Shown in pieces: positions 3,473 through 11,174 of a stretch of 49,919 bases of DNA. The notes beneath the pieces were generated by a model, which did no database searches, was not told the origin of the DNA, and saw only the letters and a list, made by a program, of their open reading frames with translations. Where the stretch lies: positions 1 to 49,919 of the forward strand of contig JAFURP010000045.1 in the NCBI GenBank assembly GCA_017471785.1, written 5' to 3'. The DNA is from Clostridia bacterium (GTDB lineage: Bacteria > Bacillota > Clostridia > Christensenellales > Borkfalkiaceae). A program made the position numbers and the translations under genes. The stretch's first letter is position 1, and each line of letters begins with the position of its first letter.

Positions 3473-4513
3473 CTCGAAATAGTTGATCTTCATAGCGCGC
3501 TTCACCTCCGCAAGCGTTTGCGCCGCTACCTCTCTCGCCTTTTCGCTGCCCTCTTTGAGCATAGCCCAGATCGCGGGGATATCCTTGGCGAGCTCCTCCC
3601 GTCTTGCGCGAATGGGCGCGAGCGTTTCCTGCATTACCTCGTTGAGCAGGCGTTTCACTTTCATATCCCCCAAGCCGCCGCGCTCGTAATGGGCTTTCAG
3701 CTCGTCGAGATTGGCGTATTCGGGCAGATATTTGGCAAAATGCTCGTCCGTGGAAAACGCGTCCAAATAGATAAAGGTGGGGTTATTCTTCGTGTCCCCT
3801 TGGTCTGTGACCTTGATATGATTGGGATCGGTATACATACCCATTACCTTGCGCTTGATCTCGTCCGCGGAATCGGAGAGGTAGATACAGTTGCCGAGCG
3901 ATTTGCTCATCTTCGCCATACCGTCCGTCCCGGGGAGGCGGAGGCAGGATTTGTTTTCGGGTAACACCGCCTTGGGCTCGACGAGCGTTTCGCCGTACAA
4001 GCCGTTGAAGCTTCTCACGATCTCGCGCGCCTGCTCTAGCATAGGCAGTTGGTCCTCGCCCACGGGTACCGTCGTCGCTTTGAACGCGGTGATGTCCGCC
4101 GTTTGCGATACGGGATAGGTCAAAAAGCCCATAGGGATAGAGGCTTCGAAGTTTTTTTGCTTAAGCTCCGTTTTTACCGTCGGGTTGCGCTCCAAGCGCG
4201 ACAGCGTTACGAGGTTCATATAATAGAAGGTAAGCTCGGTAAGCTGTTCGATATGCGATTGCACGAAGATCGTCGATTTTTTAGGGTCGATACCGCAAGC
4301 GAGATAATCGAGCGCGACCTCGGTGATATTCGCGCGCACCTTATCGGGGTTATCGAAGTTGTCGGTAAGCGCCTGCGCGTCCGCGATCATCACGTAAATT
4401 TCGTCGAATTTACCGCTGTTTTGCAGCTCCACGCGCCGCTTGAGCGAGCCGACGTAGTGTCCGATATGCAATTTTCCCGTGGGGCGGTCGCCCGTCAAAA
4501 TAATATTTTTCAT
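3470..4513 (-). CDS. trpS: tryptophan--tRNA ligase
   Basis: 347 residues from the chosen start. A longer frame begins 48 bases upstream, but the family N-terminus ([20 protein letters not shown]) and the preceding AAGG-rich site favour 4513. The class I signature HIGH is at residues 16-19 and KMSKS at 201-205, with GEDQ at about 152-155 as in TrpRS. It charges tRNA-Trp in the cytoplasm. No T-box or trp leader peptide is visible in the short upstream region. It sits between pyrE and nfnA on the same strand; whether it is cotranscribed with pyrE is unclear, since about 245 bases separate them. Confidence 0.95.
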
Positions 4514-4570
4514 AACCTTTTTTCCTTTTATTTCCGCATACTCTATCCGTTTTTTTCGCATACTGCGAAT

Positions 4571-4771
4571 ATGAAACGCAATTTTTTAGCCGCAACGGCG
4601 TGCCTGTTTCTTTGCGCCGCCGCCATCGTACTCTTCGCAGGGCACACTTTTAAGGTACGTTCGTCCGTACCCACCTTTTCCGAGCGCGCGATCGAGCAAA
4701 ACGCGGATATGCCGAAAATCAAAAATCTACTTCCGCACTTTAAGCACAGACCGCACAATTACGCGCCGTAA
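4571..4771 (+). CDS. possible small membrane or exported protein
   Basis: A 66-residue frame with start MKRN and a hydrophobic stretch [20 protein letters not shown] at about residues 5-24. That is followed by a basic, His/Pro-rich tail, like a single-span protein or uncleaved signal anchor. Codon third positions are G/C rich, as in neighbouring genes. Against it: no ribosome-binding site is visible, it lies on the strand opposite its neighbours, and its last 13 bases overlap the end of pyrE. Function unknown; it could be a chance frame. Confidence 0.4.
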
Positions 4772-5418
4772 GCGTTGCGGTATTTATACATGGCGGAAAG
4801 ATGCTCCTTACCGTCCACTACGCCGTCCTCGATCGCCGCGATGATATCGTCGATGGTCACGACGGAATATACGTCGATACCGAACTCTTTCTTCGCTTCC
4901 GCCACCGCCGACAGGTCGCTATTGAGCGCCTTTTCCTTGCGGTCTACGGAGATGACCATACCTACGACCTGCACCTTTGCCGCCGCCTCCAGCTTGGGCA
5001 AGATCTCGCGAAGCGCTTTACCCGAGGTCATAACGTCCTCGATAATGATCACCCTTTCGCCGTCTTGCAGCTGTTTGCCGACGAACAAGCCGCCCTCGCC
5101 GTGGTCCTTGGCTTCCTTGCGATCGAACGCGTAGTTGACTTCCTTTTCGTAATCGTTATACAGCGCGATCGCCGTCGCAACGGACAGGGGGATACCCTTA
5201 TACGCAGGACCGACGAGCGTGTCCGCCTCCAAACCGTTGTCGCGGATACAAGCGGCGTAATATTCGCCTAATTTCGCGAGCTGTTTGCCCGTTTTATAGT
5301 TGCCCGTATTGATGAAATAGGGAGCGATCCGTCCGCTTTTCAAGGTAAATTCGCCAAAGCGCAAAACGCCGCTCTTGACCATAAACTGAATGAACTGTTC
5401 TTTGTAGGTATATTCCAT
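4759..5418 (-). CDS. pyrE: orotate phosphoribosyltransferase
   Basis: 219 residues. The PRPP-binding signature VIIIEDVMTSGKA lies at about 123-135. The N-terminal FGEFTLKSGRIAPYF is typical of the longer PyrE type. It joins orotate and PRPP to make OMP, the fifth step of UMP synthesis. It is last among the pyr genes in transcription order, 21 bases after the RpiB-like gene, with AAGGAG before the ATG. Its 3' end overlaps a small opposing frame. Confidence 0.95.
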   Translation of the reverse strand: MEYTYKEQFIQFMVKSGVLRFGEFTLKSGRIAPYFINTGNYKTGKQLAKLGEYYAACIRDNGLEADTLVGPAYKGIPLSVATAIALYNDYEKEVNYAFDRKEAKDHGEGGLFVGKQLQDGERVIIIEDVMTSGKALREILPKLEAAAKVQVVGMVISVDRKEKALNSDLSAVAEAKKEFGIDVYSVVTIDDIIAAIEDGVVDGKEHLSAMYKYRNAYGA

Positions 5419-5439
5419 TATATTCTCCTTTTTCGCGGC

Positions 5440-5961
5440 TTACGTCGTAAAGCCGTTTTCTTTATATTTTTGATAATCGAACGCTTCGATCTCGTCCATG
5501 GCTATCTTGTGCGAATCGTAAAAGGCTTGATCGTACCCGTCGCCTAGTTCGGCGCCCAAATACGCGTCCGCGATCTCGCAGCCCGTTTTATTATCCACGT
5601 AAAACGCGCCCATAGCCAAGGCGTTTACACCGTTGCCCGTGATCGCGCGAAGGGCGGCGGGAACGCTCTCCACCACGCCCGAATGTACGCGCGGGCATTT
5701 GCTCGCCGCGATATGGATACCCATACCCGTACCGCAAAAGAGCAAGGCTCTTTCAAATTCCCCCTCCGAAATTTTCGAGCCAACCCGAAAGCCTACGCGT
5801 TGAAAGGCGTTTTCGGGCGCAGTCTTATCCGCTTCGCCCAGCACGCCGAGGTCGGTGATCTCCCAGCCCTTCGCGCGCAAATGCGCTACGACCGCCTCCT
5901 TTAAGGGAAAGCCGGAAATATCCGCGCCGACGACGAGCTGCTTGTCCTTGATCTTCTTCAT
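5440..5961 (-). CDS. RpiB/LacA/LacB-family sugar-phosphate isomerase
   Basis: 173 residues. The family core is clear: an N-terminal GADISGFPLKEAVVAHL strand-helix, the phosphate-loop and catalytic CGTGMGIHIAASK with Cys76, and a second half GNGVNALAMGAF. The substrate-specifying stretch after the cysteine differs from ordinary RpiB, so ribose-5-phosphate is not certain; RpiB relatives also act on galactose-6-phosphate or tetrose phosphates. It lies 6 bases after pyrD and 21 before pyrE, inside the pyrimidine operon. A pentose-phosphate isomerase could feed ribose-5-phosphate toward the PRPP used by PyrE, but that is inference from position. Confidence 0.8.
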   Translation of the reverse strand: MKKIKDKQLVVGADISGFPLKEAVVAHLRAKGWEITDLGVLGEADKTAPENAFQRVGFRVGSKISEGEFERALLFCGTGMGIHIAASKCPRVHSGVVESVPAALRAITGNGVNALAMGAFYVDNKTGCEIADAYLGAELGDGYDQAFYDSHKIAMDEIEAFDYQKYKENGFTT

Positions 5962-5967
5962 AAAAGC

Positions 5968-6885
5968 TTACCGTCCGTTAAGCTGTAAAACGCCCGTAAG
6001 CTCGGTGACGTTTGCAATACCGTGCTTATCGCACCAAGCGTTCAAGCCGTCTATGATTTTGGGCATTGCGTAGGGATCGGTGAAGCTTGCCGTACCCACC
6101 TGCACCGCGGTCGCGCCCGCCATCAAAAATTCGATCGCGTCCTCCGCGCAAGTGATACCGCCCATACCGATCACGGGAATTTTGACCGCTTGCGAAGCCT
6201 CGTACACCATGCGTACGGCAACGGGCTTCACGCCCGCGCCCGAAACGCCGCCCGTGTTGTTGGCGATGATCGGCTTCCTACGCTCGATATCGATCGCCAT
6301 ACCCGTCAAGGTGTTGATGAGCGAAACGCAGTCCGCGCCGCCGTTTTCCGCCGCTTGGGCGTTTGCTGCAATGCTTTCGACGTTGGGGGAAAGCTTGACG
6401 ATCAAGGGGGTCTTTTGCAAGCCGCTCTTGGCTACGCGCGTGACCTCCTCCACCGATTGAGGCTTGATGCCGAACGCCATACCGCCGCTTTTTACGTTGG
6501 GGCAGGAGATGTTCAGCTCGATCATATCGACCAGCCCGTCGAGCGTTTCGCAAATATTTTTATAATCGTCGAGCGTCTTGCCGGCAACGTTCGCGATAAC
6601 GCGCGTTCCCGTCGATTTGAGCCATTCCAGATCGCGTTCGATAAAATGCTTCACCCCCGGGTTTTGCAAGCCCACCGCGTTCAAGATCACGCCGCGGCTC
6701 TCCGCGATACGGGGCACGGGATTGCCGAGACGCGGCTCCAAGGTCAAGCCCTTGGTGGACACGCCGCCGATCGTGCCGATATCGTAAAGCTCGTTAAATT
6801 CCCGACCGAAGCCGAAAGTACCCGAAGCGGCGATCACGGGGTTTTTGAATGGTACGCCGCAAAGATTGACCGATAAATTTGCCAT
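5968..6885 (-). CDS. pyrD: dihydroorotate dehydrogenase B, catalytic subunit
   Basis: 305 residues, the length of class 1B enzymes. The active-site loop NISCPNVKSGG places catalytic Cys128, which is Cys rather than the Ser of class 2 enzymes. The glycine-rich FMN-phosphate site GMGGITCAEDAIEFLMAGA lies near the C-terminus. It oxidises dihydroorotate to orotate and passes electrons to PyrK, whose gene is directly upstream. ACTCTCC on the plus strand corresponds to a GGAGAGT ribosome-binding site. Confidence 0.95.
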   Translation of the reverse strand: MANLSVNLCGVPFKNPVIAASGTFGFGREFNELYDIGTIGGVSTKGLTLEPRLGNPVPRIAESRGVILNAVGLQNPGVKHFIERDLEWLKSTGTRVIANVAGKTLDDYKNICETLDGLVDMIELNISCPNVKSGGMAFGIKPQSVEEVTRVAKSGLQKTPLIVKLSPNVESIAANAQAAENGGADCVSLINTLTGMAIDIERRKPIIANNTGGVSGAGVKPVAVRMVYEASQAVKIPVIGMGGITCAEDAIEFLMAGATAVQVGTASFTDPYAMPKIIDGLNAWCDKHGIANVTELTGVLQLNGR

Positions 6886-6947
6886 AAACTCTCCTGTGGT
6901 AAACGTATTAAAACCGTTTTTTCGTATATTTCGTATGCTTTCGCGAT

Positions 6948-7706
6948 TTACAGAGATACGTCGCTTGCGTTAAAAACGGGACCGTCTTTGCAAACGCGCG
7001 CTTTCGCGCCTCCCGTCAAATCGCATACGCATACCAAGCACGCGCCGATACCGCAACCCATTCTCTCCTCGAGGGACACGAAGCAGGTCAAATTTTCTCT
7101 TTCCACGAGCGCTTTGAGCGCGCGAAGCATAGGCGTCGGACCGCAGGCAAGCACCACGTCGGGACGATTGCCCTTTTTCAAGTCCGCTTCGAACGCCTGC
7201 ACCGCGTTCATCTTGTCGCCGTAGCTGCCGTCGTCGGTAACGCCCACGAATTTACGGGCTTTTTCAAACTCGTCCACGCCGCAAACCGCGCCCGCGTTCC
7301 GATAGCCGATATACGCCGAGATCTCTTTCGAAGCGCCGTACTCGCGTAAAACGGAGATGAGGGGAAACACGCCCACGCCGCCGCCGACGAGCGCGACTTT
7401 TTTCTCCTTTTCTTCTATGAAGAAACCGTTGCCGAGGGGCATCAGTACGTTTACTTTCGTACCTGCCGCCAGCGTTTTCAATTTTTGCGTACCCTCGCCC
7501 TTGATCTGATAGCAAAAGGTGACCTCTCTACCGTCTACCTTACAAACGGCGATAGGACGGCGGAGCAAATGGCTGCCGCCGAGGGAGATATTGCCGAACT
7601 GTCCGCAGCGGACTTTGCAAGCCTCGTCGAGAGCAAAGGTGACCGAGTGGATATTTTCGGCGATCCGTTCGTTTTTTACGATGGTTGCCAAATAATCTTT
7701 CATCAT
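6948..7706 (-). CDS. pyrK: dihydroorotate dehydrogenase B, electron-transfer subunit
   Basis: 252 residues, FAD and [2Fe-2S] protein of the ferredoxin reductase superfamily. The cluster cysteines form C-x4-C-x2-C-x12-C at Cys218, 223, 226 and 239. The NAD-binding GGGVGVFPLISVL lies near residue 108. It carries electrons from PyrD to NAD+. Two ATG codons lie in tandem; the first (7706) is kept, with a GGGAAAAT site before it. The start is one base after the pyrF stop, so translation is probably coupled. Confidence 0.93.
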   Translation of the reverse strand: MMKDYLATIVKNERIAENIHSVTFALDEACKVRCGQFGNISLGGSHLLRRPIAVCKVDGREVTFCYQIKGEGTQKLKTLAAGTKVNVLMPLGNGFFIEEKEKKVALVGGGVGVFPLISVLREYGASKEISAYIGYRNAGAVCGVDEFEKARKFVGVTDDGSYGDKMNAVQAFEADLKKGNRPDVVLACGPTPMLRALKALVERENLTCFVSLEERMGCGIGACLVCVCDLTGGAKARVCKDGPVFNASDVSL

Positions 7707-7707
7707 T

Positions 7708-8616
7708 TTATTTTCCCATTTTGCCGATCACGTCGGACAAGTCTTTTTGCATAGCGATACAAGCCGCGCGCGCCGCTTCATAATACGTGCCGCCGTTTTT
7801 CTTATACGCGCAAAGGATACCGCGCGAATTGTTCACGACGCCGCCCAAGCCGTTTGCGCCGAAACAGCTTTTGAGCATTTGCGCGTTGCCGCCCTGCGCC
7901 CCGTACCCGGGGATAAGGAAGAAGGTGTGCGGCATCGTTTGACGAAGCCTTGCCGCTTCCGTCGGGTGCGTAGCGCCGACCACCGCGCCCACCGCCGAAT
8001 AACCGTATTTGCCTATCGTGCTCTCCCCCCATTTTTCCACGAGGTTGCCCATATGCTCGTACATAGGCACGCCGTTTTCCAAAACGACGTTTTGTATTTC
8101 CGCGCCCGAGGGATTGGACGTTTTAACGAGTACGAAAATACCCTTATCCGCCTTTTCGCACTCCTCCACGAACGGCGCGATACCGTCCGTACCCAAATAA
8201 CCGTTGACGGTCACGTAATCGGACGGGAACGCCTTGAGCGCGTTGTCGTTGACCGCCGTTTCTCCAAGAAACGTTTTCGCATAGCAAGCCGCCGTCGAGC
8301 CGATATCGTTGCGCTTTGCGTCCGCGATCACGACGAGGTCCTTTTCCGCCGCGTATTTGAGCGTTTCCTCGTACGCTTTCAAGCCCGCCACGCCGTACAT
8401 TTCGTAATAGGCGATCTGCACCTTCACCGAGGGCACGATATCGCGTACGACGTCGACGATCTTTTTATTGAACTCGAACACGCGCTCGGCTACGCCCTCG
8501 AAAGTCGTTACCCCCTCTTTCATAGTATCGGGCAGGTAATCGAACAAGGTGTCCAACCCTACGCAAGTGGGGTTTTGCATATCGATAATTTTTTCAATCA
8601 ATTTATCCGTAATCAT
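7708..8616 (-). CDS. pyrF: orotidine 5'-phosphate decarboxylase (long form)
   Basis: 302 residues, matching the roughly 300-residue PyrF type rather than the 230-residue one. The catalytic DAKRNDIGS carries Asp99, Lys101 and Asp104. It converts OMP to UMP, the last step of the pathway. The start is preceded by GGAGAGG. It is separated from pyrC by 200 bases of repeat sequence, so the distal pyr genes must be read through that structure or from an undetected promoter. Confidence 0.95.
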   Translation of the reverse strand: MITDKLIEKIIDMQNPTCVGLDTLFDYLPDTMKEGVTTFEGVAERVFEFNKKIVDVVRDIVPSVKVQIAYYEMYGVAGLKAYEETLKYAAEKDLVVIADAKRNDIGSTAACYAKTFLGETAVNDNALKAFPSDYVTVNGYLGTDGIAPFVEECEKADKGIFVLVKTSNPSGAEIQNVVLENGVPMYEHMGNLVEKWGESTIGKYGYSAVGAVVGATHPTEAARLRQTMPHTFFLIPGYGAQGGNAQMLKSCFGANGLGGVVNNSRGILCAYKKNGGTYYEAARAACIAMQKDLSDVIGKMGK

Positions 8617-8644
8617 AAGCCTCTCCTTTTCGTGAATGAATCGT

Positions 8645-8819
8645 AAAATTTATATGAGCTTGCCGCACTACGCTTCGCTCCGTTCGCAATGACAGCTCGG
8701 CTGGAGCCGAGCAAAGCAAAACGGCGGCGCTACGAGCTGTTCAAGGCGCTACGAGGGCGCGTACCGTTAGTACGTAACCGAGGGGCAACGCCGAAATGCG
8801 ACGCATATACGTCGTTTTA
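8645..8819. repeat. composite intergenic repeat 3' of pyrC
   Basis: Starts AAATTTATATG. Then comes a GCTTCGCTCCGTTCGCAATGAC palindrome-family block ending at 8693, a perfect short hairpin GCTCGGCT/AGCCGAGC (8695-8712), and a full copy of the roughly 100-bp element at 8718-8819. That copy begins AAAACGGCG, has inner stem CGTAC/GTACG, and ends ATACGTCGTTTTA. The end of the element contains the complement of the pyrC stop codon (8817-8819). The same block order is seen, decayed, at 949-1053. The element lies inside the pyr operon. Confidence 0.8.
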
Positions 8820-10079
8820 CCCCTGGTATTTAATGGAGCCGTCTACGATAGTATACTTCACCACGCCGTCCAGCTCGTAACCCTTGAACGGGCTGTTTTT
8901 GCCCTTGCTGACGAACGCGGCAGGGTCTACGACGAAGCTTTCGTCCAAGTTTGCCAAGGTGAGATCGGCAACGCCGCCCTCCTTGATCTCGCCGCCCTCC
9001 AAGTTCAGGATACGCGCAGGCGCGGCGGACATCTTTTCCGCGATCTCGGGCAAGCTCAATACGCCTGCTTTATACAAATAGGTGATCGCAAAACCGAACG
9101 AGGTTTCGATACCGCTGATACCGAACGCCGCGAGGTTGTATTCCACGTTCTTGTCGTTGATATGATGGGGCGCGTGGTCGGTCACGATACAGTCGAGCGT
9201 ACCGTCCTTCAAGCCCTCCAAAACCGCTTGCTTGTCTATCTCCTCGCGAATGGGGGGATTGACCTTGGTGTTCGTATCGAAGCTCGTAACGATCTCGTCG
9301 GTGACCGCAAAATAGTGCGGACAGGTTTCCGCCGTGACCTTTACGCCCGCCTTTTTCGCGTCGCGAATGAGGCGCACGCCGCTGTGCGTGGACACGTGGC
9401 AAATGTGCACGGGCACGTCCAAGCTTTCCGCAAGCGCGATCTCACGCGCGATCACGATATCCTCCGCCGCGCGGGGAATCCCCTTTAAGCCTGCGATCGT
9501 CGAGGACAAGCCCTCGTTCACCACGCCGCCGTCCACGAGCTCTTTCTCCTCGCAATGGCACAAGCATTTCATGGCAAAGCCGCTCGCGTACTCCATAGCA
9601 AGGCGCATGAGCCGCGTATTCTTTACGGTCACGCCGTCGTCGGAGATAGCGACCGCGCCCGCGCGCTTCATTTCACCGATCTCGGCAAGCTGTTCGCCCT
9701 TTTCCCCTTTGGTGATCGCGCCGATGGGGTGCACTTTACAAAGATCGACCTCTTGCGCCTTGTGCTTGATATAGCTTACGACCACCTTATTGTCGGCGAT
9801 CGGGTCGGTGTTGGGCATACAGCAAATTTGGGTGAAACCGCCCTTTACCGCCGCCTTGGAGCCGCTCTCGATATCCTCTTTATATTCGTACCCCGGGTCG
9901 CGCAAATGTACGTGCATATCGATAAGCCCCGGGAAGATATGCAAGCCGCTCGCGTCAAGCTCCGTATCCCCGTTTGCGGGAATGGTATCGGCGATCTTGA
10001 CGATCCTACCCCCTTCAACGAGAATATCCTTTTTCTCCACCGAATTTTTCAGTACTACCTTGCCGTTTCTGATAATCAT
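8817..10079 (-). CDS. pyrC: dihydroorotase
   Basis: 420 residues, a class I amidohydrolase. The metal-binding DMHVHLRDPG has His56 and His58; other metal ligands fall in the CHCEE and HICHVST stretches, and the C-terminal catalytic Asp is in TDHAPHH. It interconverts carbamoyl aspartate and dihydroorotate. The start is 15 bases after the pyrB stop with AGGAGAGAGGAG in between. The stop codon is contributed by the end of the adjoining repeat, so the C-terminus may have been set by that insertion. Confidence 0.95.
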   Translation of the reverse strand: MIIRNGKVVLKNSVEKKDILVEGGRIVKIADTIPANGDTELDASGLHIFPGLIDMHVHLRDPGYEYKEDIESGSKAAVKGGFTQICCMPNTDPIADNKVVVSYIKHKAQEVDLCKVHPIGAITKGEKGEQLAEIGEMKRAGAVAISDDGVTVKNTRLMRLAMEYASGFAMKCLCHCEEKELVDGGVVNEGLSSTIAGLKGIPRAAEDIVIAREIALAESLDVPVHICHVSTHSGVRLIRDAKKAGVKVTAETCPHYFAVTDEIVTSFDTNTKVNPPIREEIDKQAVLEGLKDGTLDCIVTDHAPHHINDKNVEYNLAAFGISGIETSFGFAITYLYKAGVLSLPEIAEKMSAAPARILNLEGGEIKEGGVADLTLANLDESFVVDPAAFVSKGKNSPFKGYELDGVVKYTIVDGSIKYQG

Positions 10080-10094
10080 ACTCCTCTCTCCTCT

Positions 10095-11024
10095 TTATTT
10101 GGTAAAATCTCTATAATCGTTGAGCAGCTTCAACACCGCCATTCGAACGGCGATACCCGAGAATACCTGTTCCTCGATACGGCTCTTTTCGTGGTCGATC
10201 ACCTTACCCGTCAATTCCACGCCGCGATTGACGGGGCCGGGGTGCATAATGATCGCGTTGGGTTTTGCCAGCCTCAACGATTTTGCGTCCACACCGTAGA
10301 ACGCCGCGTATTCGTTGAGCGTGGGGAAGTTCCCCGCCTGTTGGCGCTCTAATTGTATCCGCAAGCCCATCACGACGTCGGCGCCCTCCAGCGCCTCCTC
10401 CTTGCTCTTACAAAGCTTTGCGCCCAATTTATCGATATCCTTGGGGATAAGCGTTTCGGGTGCGTACATATACACCTGCGCGCCCATCGTCTTTAAGCCG
10501 AACAAATTGGACTTGGCTACGCGCGAGTGCTTGATATCTCCGACGATCGCCACCTTTAAGCCTTGCAAGCTTCCGAAATGCTCGCGCATGGTCAGCATAT
10601 CGAGGAGGGCTTGCGTGGGGTGCTCGTTCATACCGTCGCCTGCGTTCAACACGCCCGCTTTGGCTACTTTCGCAAGTAGATAGGGCGCGCCGCCCATGGG
10701 ATGGCGCATGATCAAAAAGTCGTTGAGCTGTGCGTCCAACGTCTTACCCGTATCGACGAGCGTTTCCCCCTTGGCTACGGAGGAGGTCGCCGCCGCGATA
10801 TTGATGACCGTCGCGCCGAGATATTTAGCCGCAAGCTCGAAGCTCGTACGGGTCCGCGTGCTGTTCTCGTAGAAGAGAATGGTCGCCGTTTTGCCCTTGA
10901 GATAGGGCAGGTTCTTGTCCCCTGCTTTGAGGTGCTTTTTCATCTCCGACGCCACGTCGAGGATCTCGGTAATCTCCTCCGCCGTGAGGTCGATAAGCCC
11001 CAGCAGGTCTTTTCTTTTGAGCAT
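10095..11024 (-). CDS. pyrB: aspartate carbamoyltransferase catalytic subunit
   Basis: 309 residues from the ATG at 11024, which has AAGGAG 6 bases upstream. A longer frame upstream is rejected because it would include the leader RNA. The carbamoyl-phosphate site STRTRTS is at 55-61 and HPTQALLD lies mid-protein. It makes carbamoyl aspartate, the committed step. No pyrI regulatory gene is adjacent, as is usual for Firmicute PyrB. It is the first gene of the pyr operon, downstream of a structured leader with a terminator, so it is very likely controlled by attenuation. Confidence 0.95.
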   Translation of the reverse strand: MLKRKDLLGLIDLTAEEITEILDVASEMKKHLKAGDKNLPYLKGKTATILFYENSTRTRTSFELAAKYLGATVINIAAATSSVAKGETLVDTGKTLDAQLNDFLIMRHPMGGAPYLLAKVAKAGVLNAGDGMNEHPTQALLDMLTMREHFGSLQGLKVAIVGDIKHSRVAKSNLFGLKTMGAQVYMYAPETLIPKDIDKLGAKLCKSKEEALEGADVVMGLRIQLERQQAGNFPTLNEYAAFYGVDAKSLRLAKPNAIIMHPGPVNRGVELTGKVIDHEKSRIEEQVFSGIAVRMAVLKLLNDYRDFTK

Positions 11025-11034
11025 ATATTTCTCC

Positions 11035-11079
11035 TTACTTCCTTCCGTTTTCCGCCTTGCATAAAAAAATCTCGGACAT
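11035..11079 (-). CDS. candidate 14-codon pyr leader peptide
   Basis: The frame ATG TCC GAG ATT TTT TTA ... encodes MSEIFLCKAENGRK. It starts in the terminator hairpin, is read across the T run, and its stop codon (AAGTAAGGAG) touches the pyrB ribosome-binding site. No strong ribosome-binding site precedes it: only GGGCAGGT, which is very close. If translated, the ribosome would melt the terminator and could couple to pyrB. It could also be a chance frame. Confidence 0.3.
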   Translation of the reverse strand: MSEIFLCKAENGRK

Positions 11080-11091
11080 ACCTGCCCAAGA
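11063..11091 (-). terminator. attenuator terminator in the pyrB leader
   Basis: On the transcribed strand TCTTGGGCA pairs with TGTCCGAGA (9 bp, two G-T wobbles) around a GGTA loop, followed by seven T. It lies about 40 bases before the pyrB start. Its 5' arm shares TCTT with the last strand of the upstream pseudoknot, so the two folds exclude each other. Confidence 0.75.
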
Positions 11092-11123
11092 CGCCGATAC
11101 AATTTCCGTCTTTCGGCTATCGG
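11088..11123 (-). promoter_or_regulatory. H-type pseudoknot in the pyrB leader, candidate riboswitch
   Basis: On the transcript the order is CCGATA, 5-nt loop, AAGACG, 7-nt loop, TATCGG, then directly CGTCTT. CCGATA pairs with TATCGG and AAGACG with CGTCTT, all Watson-Crick, giving two stackable 6-bp stems. The last strand overlaps the 5' arm of the terminator at 11063-11091. The region does not match the PyrR-binding loop I know from Bacillus. An alternative hairpin TTCGG/CCGAA just upstream overlaps the first stem. Sensing of a ligand is inference. Confidence 0.55.
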
Positions 11124-11145
11124 AAAAACCGAACTTATCTTTATT

Positions 11146-11174
11146 ATTATACTACTTTTTTTCGGTGTTGTAAA
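11146..11174 (-). promoter_or_regulatory. pyr operon promoter
   Basis: TTTACA (complement at 11169-11174), 17-bp spacer, TATAAT (complement at 11146-11151). Transcription would begin near 11139, leaving a 115-nt leader before pyrB that holds the pseudoknot and terminator. Confidence 0.8.

Follow-up and report, generated by a model that had tools for sequence, protein, structure and literature searches.

The leader of pyrB in the window (the whole stretch of 49,919 nucleotides analysed here) is probably an orphaned PyrR attenuator, in which the protein and its binding loop have been lost and the antiterminator/terminator pair has been kept, with the outcome likely left to a protein-free contest between hairpins. 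The leader holds a remnant of the PyrR hairpin, a terminator-like hairpin and complementary strands, and the binding loop is missing. PyrR is not found in the genome of the window (G000, 83% complete), nor in the clade of 41 species to which it belongs (see below).

The pyrB gene lies in an operon-like run, pyrB-pyrC-pyrF-pyrK-like-pyrD-pyrE, which is followed by a gene for tryptophan--tRNA ligase (window 3473-11024, minus strand). A promoter comparable to that of the window is also located upstream of pyrB in relatives. No Rfam family has a match in the window at the gathering score. The features of the locus are the following.

10098-11024, minus strand: pyrB, aspartate carbamoyltransferase (NF002032, E 6.3e-114)
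4762-10079, minus strand: pyrC, pyrF, pyrK-like, pyrD and pyrE, the remainder of the operon-like run
11146-11174, minus strand: sigma-70-type promoter, TTTACA - 17 nt - TATAAT (11 of 12 consensus letters)
11107-11121, minus strand: remnant of the PyrR hairpin (3′ half), GATAGCCGAAAGACG against GATGCCGACAAGACG (local score 20)
11107-11117, minus strand: antiterminator 5′ strand in the predicted MFE fold, GCC (11117-11115), ga, AAGACG (11112-11107)
11084-11093, minus strand: predicted antiterminator 3′ strand, CGUCUU-g-GGC, which overlaps the terminator 5′ arm
11069-11092, minus strand: terminator-like hairpin of 10 pairs, GTCTTGGGCA-GGTA-TGTCCGAGAT
11063-11069, minus strand: closing T run of the terminator, seven T in the sequence
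11093-11117, minus strand: alternative hairpin predicted in the fold of the full leader, GCCGA (11117-11113) / TCGGC (11097-11093)

Judged by its letters, the hairpin at 11092-11069 with the seven T at 11069-11063 is an intrinsic terminator upstream of a pyr gene. An earlier reading of the sequence alone (to be referred to as the sequence-only reading) had proposed a pseudoknot whose last strand overlaps the 5′ arm of this terminator, and the overlap is confirmed. The strand needed by the terminator can also pair upstream instead, in the sequence and in the predicted fold, and the same reading was right to regard the pyrB leader as attenuator-like. For RNA extending up to the terminator loop, the MFE fold of the window is predicted to contain GCC-ga-AAGACG / CGUCUU-g-GGC. 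In the nearest relative, L002 (the same as L051; pyrB 94% identical), the counterpart of the 5′ strand is GCC-ga-CAAGACG, and the predicted fold contains GCC-ga-CAAGACG / CGUCUUGGGC. The predicted fold and the sequence remnant together give the arrangement of a PyrR attenuator, with an antiterminator composed of the 3′ half of the hairpin and the 5′ arm of the terminator.

Before the 3′ arm is present, the terminator 5′ arm is predicted to pair with an upstream partner (any such partner counts) with a mean probability of 0.76 for the window and 0.86 for L002; in 12 leaders of PyrR-bearing genomes the range is 0.71 to 1.00 (12 of the 13 such rows, L112 being dropped). The energy gained on completing the terminator is 9.5 kcal/mol for the window, inside the range of 4.2 to 14.4 kcal/mol given by the PyrR-bearing leaders. 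At this decision stage, L034 is predicted to employ the same remnant, and L010 another upstream stretch. In the predicted fold of the full leader, the alternative GCCGA/UCGGC hairpin adjoins the terminator, and several PyrR-less relatives have a predicted hairpin resembling GCCGAU/AUCGGC.

These folds suggest how the leader may operate. As the polymerase crosses the terminator loop, GCC-ga-AAGACG would pair with CGUCUU-g-GGC, and, as soon as its own 3′ arm has been transcribed, the 10-bp terminator could displace this antiterminator. In the ancestor, UMP-bound PyrR would have held the 5′ hairpin and favored termination, as in Bacillus. With PyrR gone, folding kinetics alone would set the outcome: a constant fraction of transcripts would read through, perhaps modulated by how fast the polymerase elongates or by the supply of NTPs.

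The ancestry of the leader can be followed in its relatives. A PyrB search gave matches in 97 of 101 genomes, a count that includes matches to paralogous carbamoyltransferases. Within the genus, 50 pyrB upstream regions were read, the window's own included, and named loci were taken from GTDB genomes as the best 80 of 559 confirmed; the named relatives include Candidatus Scatosoma, Gallimonas and Borkfalkia. Leaders before pyrR in the relatives have the form UCUUUAA-n-GCGGYA[CNGNGA]UGCCGACAAGAC ... followed by a GUCUUG-type terminator. In loci with pyrR directly ahead of pyrB, UCUUUAA-GAGCGGYACCGNGAUGCCGACAAGACG usually comes after the promoter, then a spacer, and then GUCUUG, a hairpin and a U-run. 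Of the 63 related loci scanned, 38 have a hairpin that carries a CNGNGA hexaloop and has CAAG after it, and all 38 are in pyrR-bearing genomes. Among the other 25 loci, L102, L125, L126 and L128 are from PyrR-bearing genomes and have divergent forms that the hairpin pattern missed, the leader of L127 is similar by look (PyrR status unscored), and the remaining 20 are from genomes without a PyrR match.

Alignment of the 29 distinct hairpins shows a lower stem with 81.4% of its cells paired (the outermost pair in only 10 of 29), an internal loop, an upper stem of five pairs that is 100% paired, and the hexaloop CNGNGA. Two-sided changes occur in four of the 10 pairs, a number matched by 2 of 500 shuffles, and slid versions of the structure reach at most two. 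The proteins adjacent to L077 and L121 are named PyrR by NCBIfam. Bacillus PyrR recognizes the motif ARUCCAGAGAGGYU (PMC7430163), and the hexaloop of L081, L108 and L136 is CAGAGA, the same as in this motif. In Bacillus, UMP-bound PyrR stabilizes the anti-antiterminator, upon which the terminator forms (PMC7430163), and repression by UMP-bound PyrR is reported for Streptococcus (PMC10942264). We infer that the CNGNGA hairpins of the relatives bind PyrR, and predict that their leaders are PyrR-type attenuators.

At a permissive threshold, Rfam finds no pyr element in ten pyrB/pyrR loci, nine of them from PyrR-bearing genomes, and the PyrR-type leaders tested from the present group therefore go unreported by Rfam. 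The alignment behind the loop model R1 (see below) could seed an Rfam update, with the 38 hairpin loci (for example L073-L079, L081-L086, L103, L121 and L130) at hand. Nine loci without a PyrR match (L099, L100, L101, L106, L107, L116, L117, L120 and L123) have a different leader before pyrB, a long terminator-like AGCGG...hairpin...CCGCU-U-run with internal loops, which may be another pyr attenuator. L087, L091 and L113, also without a PyrR match, have GUCUUG-type terminators before pyrB and lack the intact loop; they are perhaps independent cases of the same PyrR loss.

PyrR is present in 12 of the 57 genomes of the genus. The loop model R1 has matches in 11 of the 57, all within these 12, and in none of the 45 PyrR-less genomes. 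Ten of the 11 genus hits of R1 were in its own training set, which also included an exact copy of the eleventh, and for this reason only its absence from the other 45 genomes is informative. The genome scan applied strict filters, with 121 candidates scored per genome, and the twelfth PyrR-bearing genome, the one without an R1 match, is G042, which is in about 270 contigs. R1 scores in the PyrR-bearing genomes of the genus are 37.8 to 58.9 bits. The best score in the window is 11.6 bits, compared to 57.4 bits for L067 and 53.1 bits for L068; no hexaloop is aligned there and an intact hexaloop is not found, in agreement with the sequence-only reading, which had noted the absence of the PyrR-binding loop. 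Twenty-five further genomes were reached via loci (some species repeated), and PyrR is present in three of them, with an intact loop before pyrB in L067 and L068 and before pyrR in L077; the best of the remaining loci scored with R1 is L072 (18 bits, E 0.69). From these sequences, PyrR and the binding loop appear to disappear together. In G007, G015, G029, G045 and G055 there are two PyrR genes each above the cut-off, one adjoining pyrB and one elsewhere.

No PyrR match is found in G000 at 1e-10, and in a search for paralogues the best weak match has 25.4 bits against a cut-off of 138. Since this genome is 83% complete, its own PyrR gene could be unsequenced. PyrR is also not found in nine clade members that are at least 92% complete (one with 6% contamination). 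The 41 species, in none of which the search finds PyrR, form a single clade on the pyrB tree (support 100/99). The tree was built from pyrB only, for 50 of the 57 genus genomes (the other seven are without a close pyrB), and was rooted at its midpoint; one outgroup row, L079, falls inside the genus. L032, outside the clade and from a genome 65% complete, is an apparent second loss of PyrR.

A remnant of the PyrR hairpin was searched for in 44 leaders. The window remnant, GAUAGCCGAAAGACG, is equalled by 2 of 500 shuffles. In L002 (GCCGACAAGACG), L010 (UGAUGCCGACAAGACG) and L032, none of 500 shuffles does as well, and the numbers for L034 and L036 are 1 and 3 of 500, respectively. The PyrR-bearing L027 and L028 match 25 and 23 of 25 letters. 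Three of the other 36 leaders are at p 0.012-0.034 and the rest are above 0.05. In the L010 leader the upper stem can still be aligned and the loop is altered, and the antiterminator strand of the window has lost one C. The relatives indicate that the window leader descends from a PyrR-type attenuator and that its binding loop has decayed.

The terminator outlasts PyrR in much of the clade. It is present before pyrB in 26 of the 41 PyrR-less members, in 24 by the program, compared to 0.9 expected from shuffles; those of L020 and L041 were found by eye and entered by hand, as were those of the PyrR-bearing L027 and L028. Two-sided changes are found at several positions of the stem among 25 leaders (the L005 row was anchored one base off; in the right register it has C-G replaced by T-A at position 0). 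In an alignment of 14 leaders, the terminator stem changes on both sides in three of 10 pairs. The five two-sided pairs of this alignment are reached by 20 of 500 shuffles and its covariation score by 2 of 500. A control slid by +1 has seven two-sided pairs against the five of the structure, with 46.1% of its cells paired against 87.3%. Selection on the terminator across the clade is, on these alignments, fairly supported. A pattern for one form of the terminator has four matches in the 57 genus genomes, all just upstream of pyrB, and says little about second copies in G000 because it misses the window's own terminator. In L022 the terminator hairpin comes directly after the promoter, with no room for an antiterminator.

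The antiterminator duplexes are above shuffles in L010, L033, L034 and L036 (p 0.003-0.007), and that of the window is unexceptional (z -1.4, p 0.10). For 25 PyrR-less leaders, p is below 0.05 in five and above it in 20, z is negative in 19 and positive in six, and 19 duplexes are stronger than with the reversed target. The combined p is 7e-6, a figure that ignores relatedness. With p of 0.10 for the window and 20 of 25 leaders above 0.05, the case for the window's antiterminator is one of ancestry and prediction.

Two overlapping extensions of the orphaned attenuator can be considered, and we hold both tentatively. In the first, the 41-species clade would have kept and rewired the pyr attenuator after the loss of PyrR, such that RNA alone sets the transcription of the operon; elongation speed or direct binding might let it sense how much nucleotide is available. 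This would comprise the old remnants in the window and four others, as well as 14 species with a re-registered AACGAAAC/GUUUCGUU pairing, maybe recruited from neighboring bases. In the second, which overlaps with the best explanation and which we consider possible but doubtful, some other sensor would have taken over from PyrR at this antiterminator/terminator pair; candidates are NTP-dependent elongation kinetics, an RNA-binding protein and the direct binding of a ligand.

The persistence of terminators in 26 of the 41 species is consistent with a replaced sensor, as is a second type of leader. Fourteen PyrR-less leaders have a conserved AACGAAAC, exact or near, toward the 5′ end, which is fully or partly complementary to GUUUCGUU within the terminator loop, and in some of them a hairpin resembling GCCGAU/AUCGGC encloses AACGAAAC. 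The seven antiterminator pairs of AACGAAAC/GUUUCGUU are 92.9% paired and none of them has a two-sided change, so the pairing is conserved but not proven, which counts against a replaced sensor; moreover, no candidate signal, protein or ligand emerged. The GCCGA(U/A)AAAACG of L030, L031 and L013 resembles GCCGACAAGACG (p 0.012-0.034), and this likeness suggests that the second leader type may derive from the same remnant. RNAalifold predicts only the terminator for the 14-leader set. A kissing interaction between the terminator loop and the 5′ leader was considered and rejected: the complementarity is long in one leader type, but for most leaders taken singly p exceeds 0.05, and the pairs do not covary.

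A dead relic of the same ancestry, in which terminator and antiterminator decay passively with no regulatory value and pyrB is constitutive, is an unlikely account of the leader. No terminator is seen before pyrB in 15 of the 41 clade members, which could mean nothing more than decay of the element. Leader types are intermingled on the pyrB tree, with differences between close neighbors, and the base lost from the window's antiterminator strand points the same way. However, passive decay does not readily accommodate a terminator with its T-run in 26 of 41 species, the two-sided changes in its stem, or the strong antiterminators of L010, L033, L034 and L036.

The sequence-only reading had instead proposed a perfect H-type pseudoknot, by analogy with small pseudoknot riboswitches of the preQ1-I kind. 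Its strands and loops are the following.

11094-11123, minus strand: first stem (S1), CCGATA (11123-11118) / TATCGG (11099-11094), judged a lineage-specific or chance match
11088-11112, minus strand: second stem (S2), AAGACG (11112-11107) / CGTCTT (11093-11088)
11113-11117, minus strand: loop between the strands, GCCGA (5 nt)
11100-11106, minus strand: loop between the strands, GAAATTG (7 nt)

The letters, the positions, the loops of 5 and 7 nt and the zero gap are all correct; the pseudoknot itself is not supported. A ligand-binding riboswitch of this design, with the two 6-bp stems as aptamer and the last strand contested by the terminator, is in our view highly improbable. Its stems are perfect and jointly rare: when the 70-nt leader is shuffled with its dinucleotides preserved, a 6+6 H-type pattern with loops of at most 10 nt arises in 22 of 20,000 cases, and to this extent the two stems together are unusual. 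With AAGACG/CGUCUU fixed, however, the other stem arises in 1,781 of 20,000 shuffles (8.9%), and a scan of both strands of the window finds 20 such patterns. The key issue is therefore which stem is older.

The leader is conserved beyond its flanking DNA (75 of 88 columns, compared to 54 of 91 upstream and 29 of 39 downstream), as the pseudoknot would lead one to expect. Conservation of both stems in a relative, expected likewise, is not observed: in the single comparison, with L002, S2 is kept and CCGAUA/UAUCGG retains three of six pairs (L001/L002 alignment, pairs counted by eye). No counterpart of S1 is seen by eye in the relic leaders L010, L034 and L036. CCGAUA/UAUCGG is also missing from both printed folds of the window, with a nested antiterminator predicted in its place; the program is blind to pseudoknots, and a pseudoknot is thus compatible with its nested output. 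The geometry is awkward as well. By our own reasoning, the lack of any nucleotide between the two 3′ strands, a third loop of zero length, would leave a 5-nt loop to bridge the 12 bp of the two stems, which differs from preQ1-I. The analogy with that class is not supported, S1 being unconserved in L002, outside the predicted decision-stage fold and sterically odd. In the fold predicted for RNA ending at the terminator loop, AAGACG/CGUCUU forms the central part of a plain nested hairpin, GCC-ga-AAGACG / CGUCUU-g-GGC, and we judge CCGAUA/UAUCGG to be a lineage-specific or chance match; by eye, CCGAUA aligns approximately where the ancestral hexaloop stood. The orphaned attenuator does not need this stem. 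Among the literature matches listed, no title concerns PyrR-less pyr attenuators or a pyrB pseudoknot.

UTP-sensing, ribosome-coupled attenuation through a leader peptide, as in E. coli pyrBI, can be set aside as the least probable account: small open frames exist (in the window from ATG 11079-11077, within the terminator, and a longer one in L010), but by eye no plausible ribosome-binding site precedes any of them, and none of L002, L034 and L036 preserves the start codons (L001, L002, L034 and L036 compared). The open frame of L010 runs from ATGCCGACAAGACG to the pyrB start region, with no ribosome-binding site seen by eye.

The orphaned attenuator suggests that, after an RNA switch loses its protein, the binding loop may decay while the terminator persists over many species, and in several lineages the antiterminator as well. 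The PyrR-less clade offers a natural series for the survival of an attenuator without its sensor, and the same series bears on the control of pyrimidine synthesis in PyrR-less Clostridia.

The preQ1 class I riboswitch is small, with one strand common to aptamer and terminator. The window leader is also small and shares a strand with its terminator, but has no second conserved stem, no third loop and no known ligand. In E. coli pyrBI, the terminator in the pyrB leader works without a dedicated regulatory protein. The terminator of the window leader is likewise without one, but a leader peptide is unsupported there. The PyrR attenuators of Bacillus and other Gram-positive bacteria (PMC7430163) differ from the window, where the binding loop has decayed and neither the genome nor the 41-species clade yields a pyrR match; they are similar to it in serving pyr genes, in reusing the anti-antiterminator strand in the antiterminator, and in having an antiterminator 3′ strand common to the terminator. 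The PyrR-type leaders of related Clostridia (38 loci) keep the CNGNGA hexaloop intact and come from genomes that encode PyrR, in contrast to the window, for which neither is found. They share with it the promoter and the GCCGACAAGACG block, and the genus members L067 and L068 have the same terminator arm, GUCUUGGGC.
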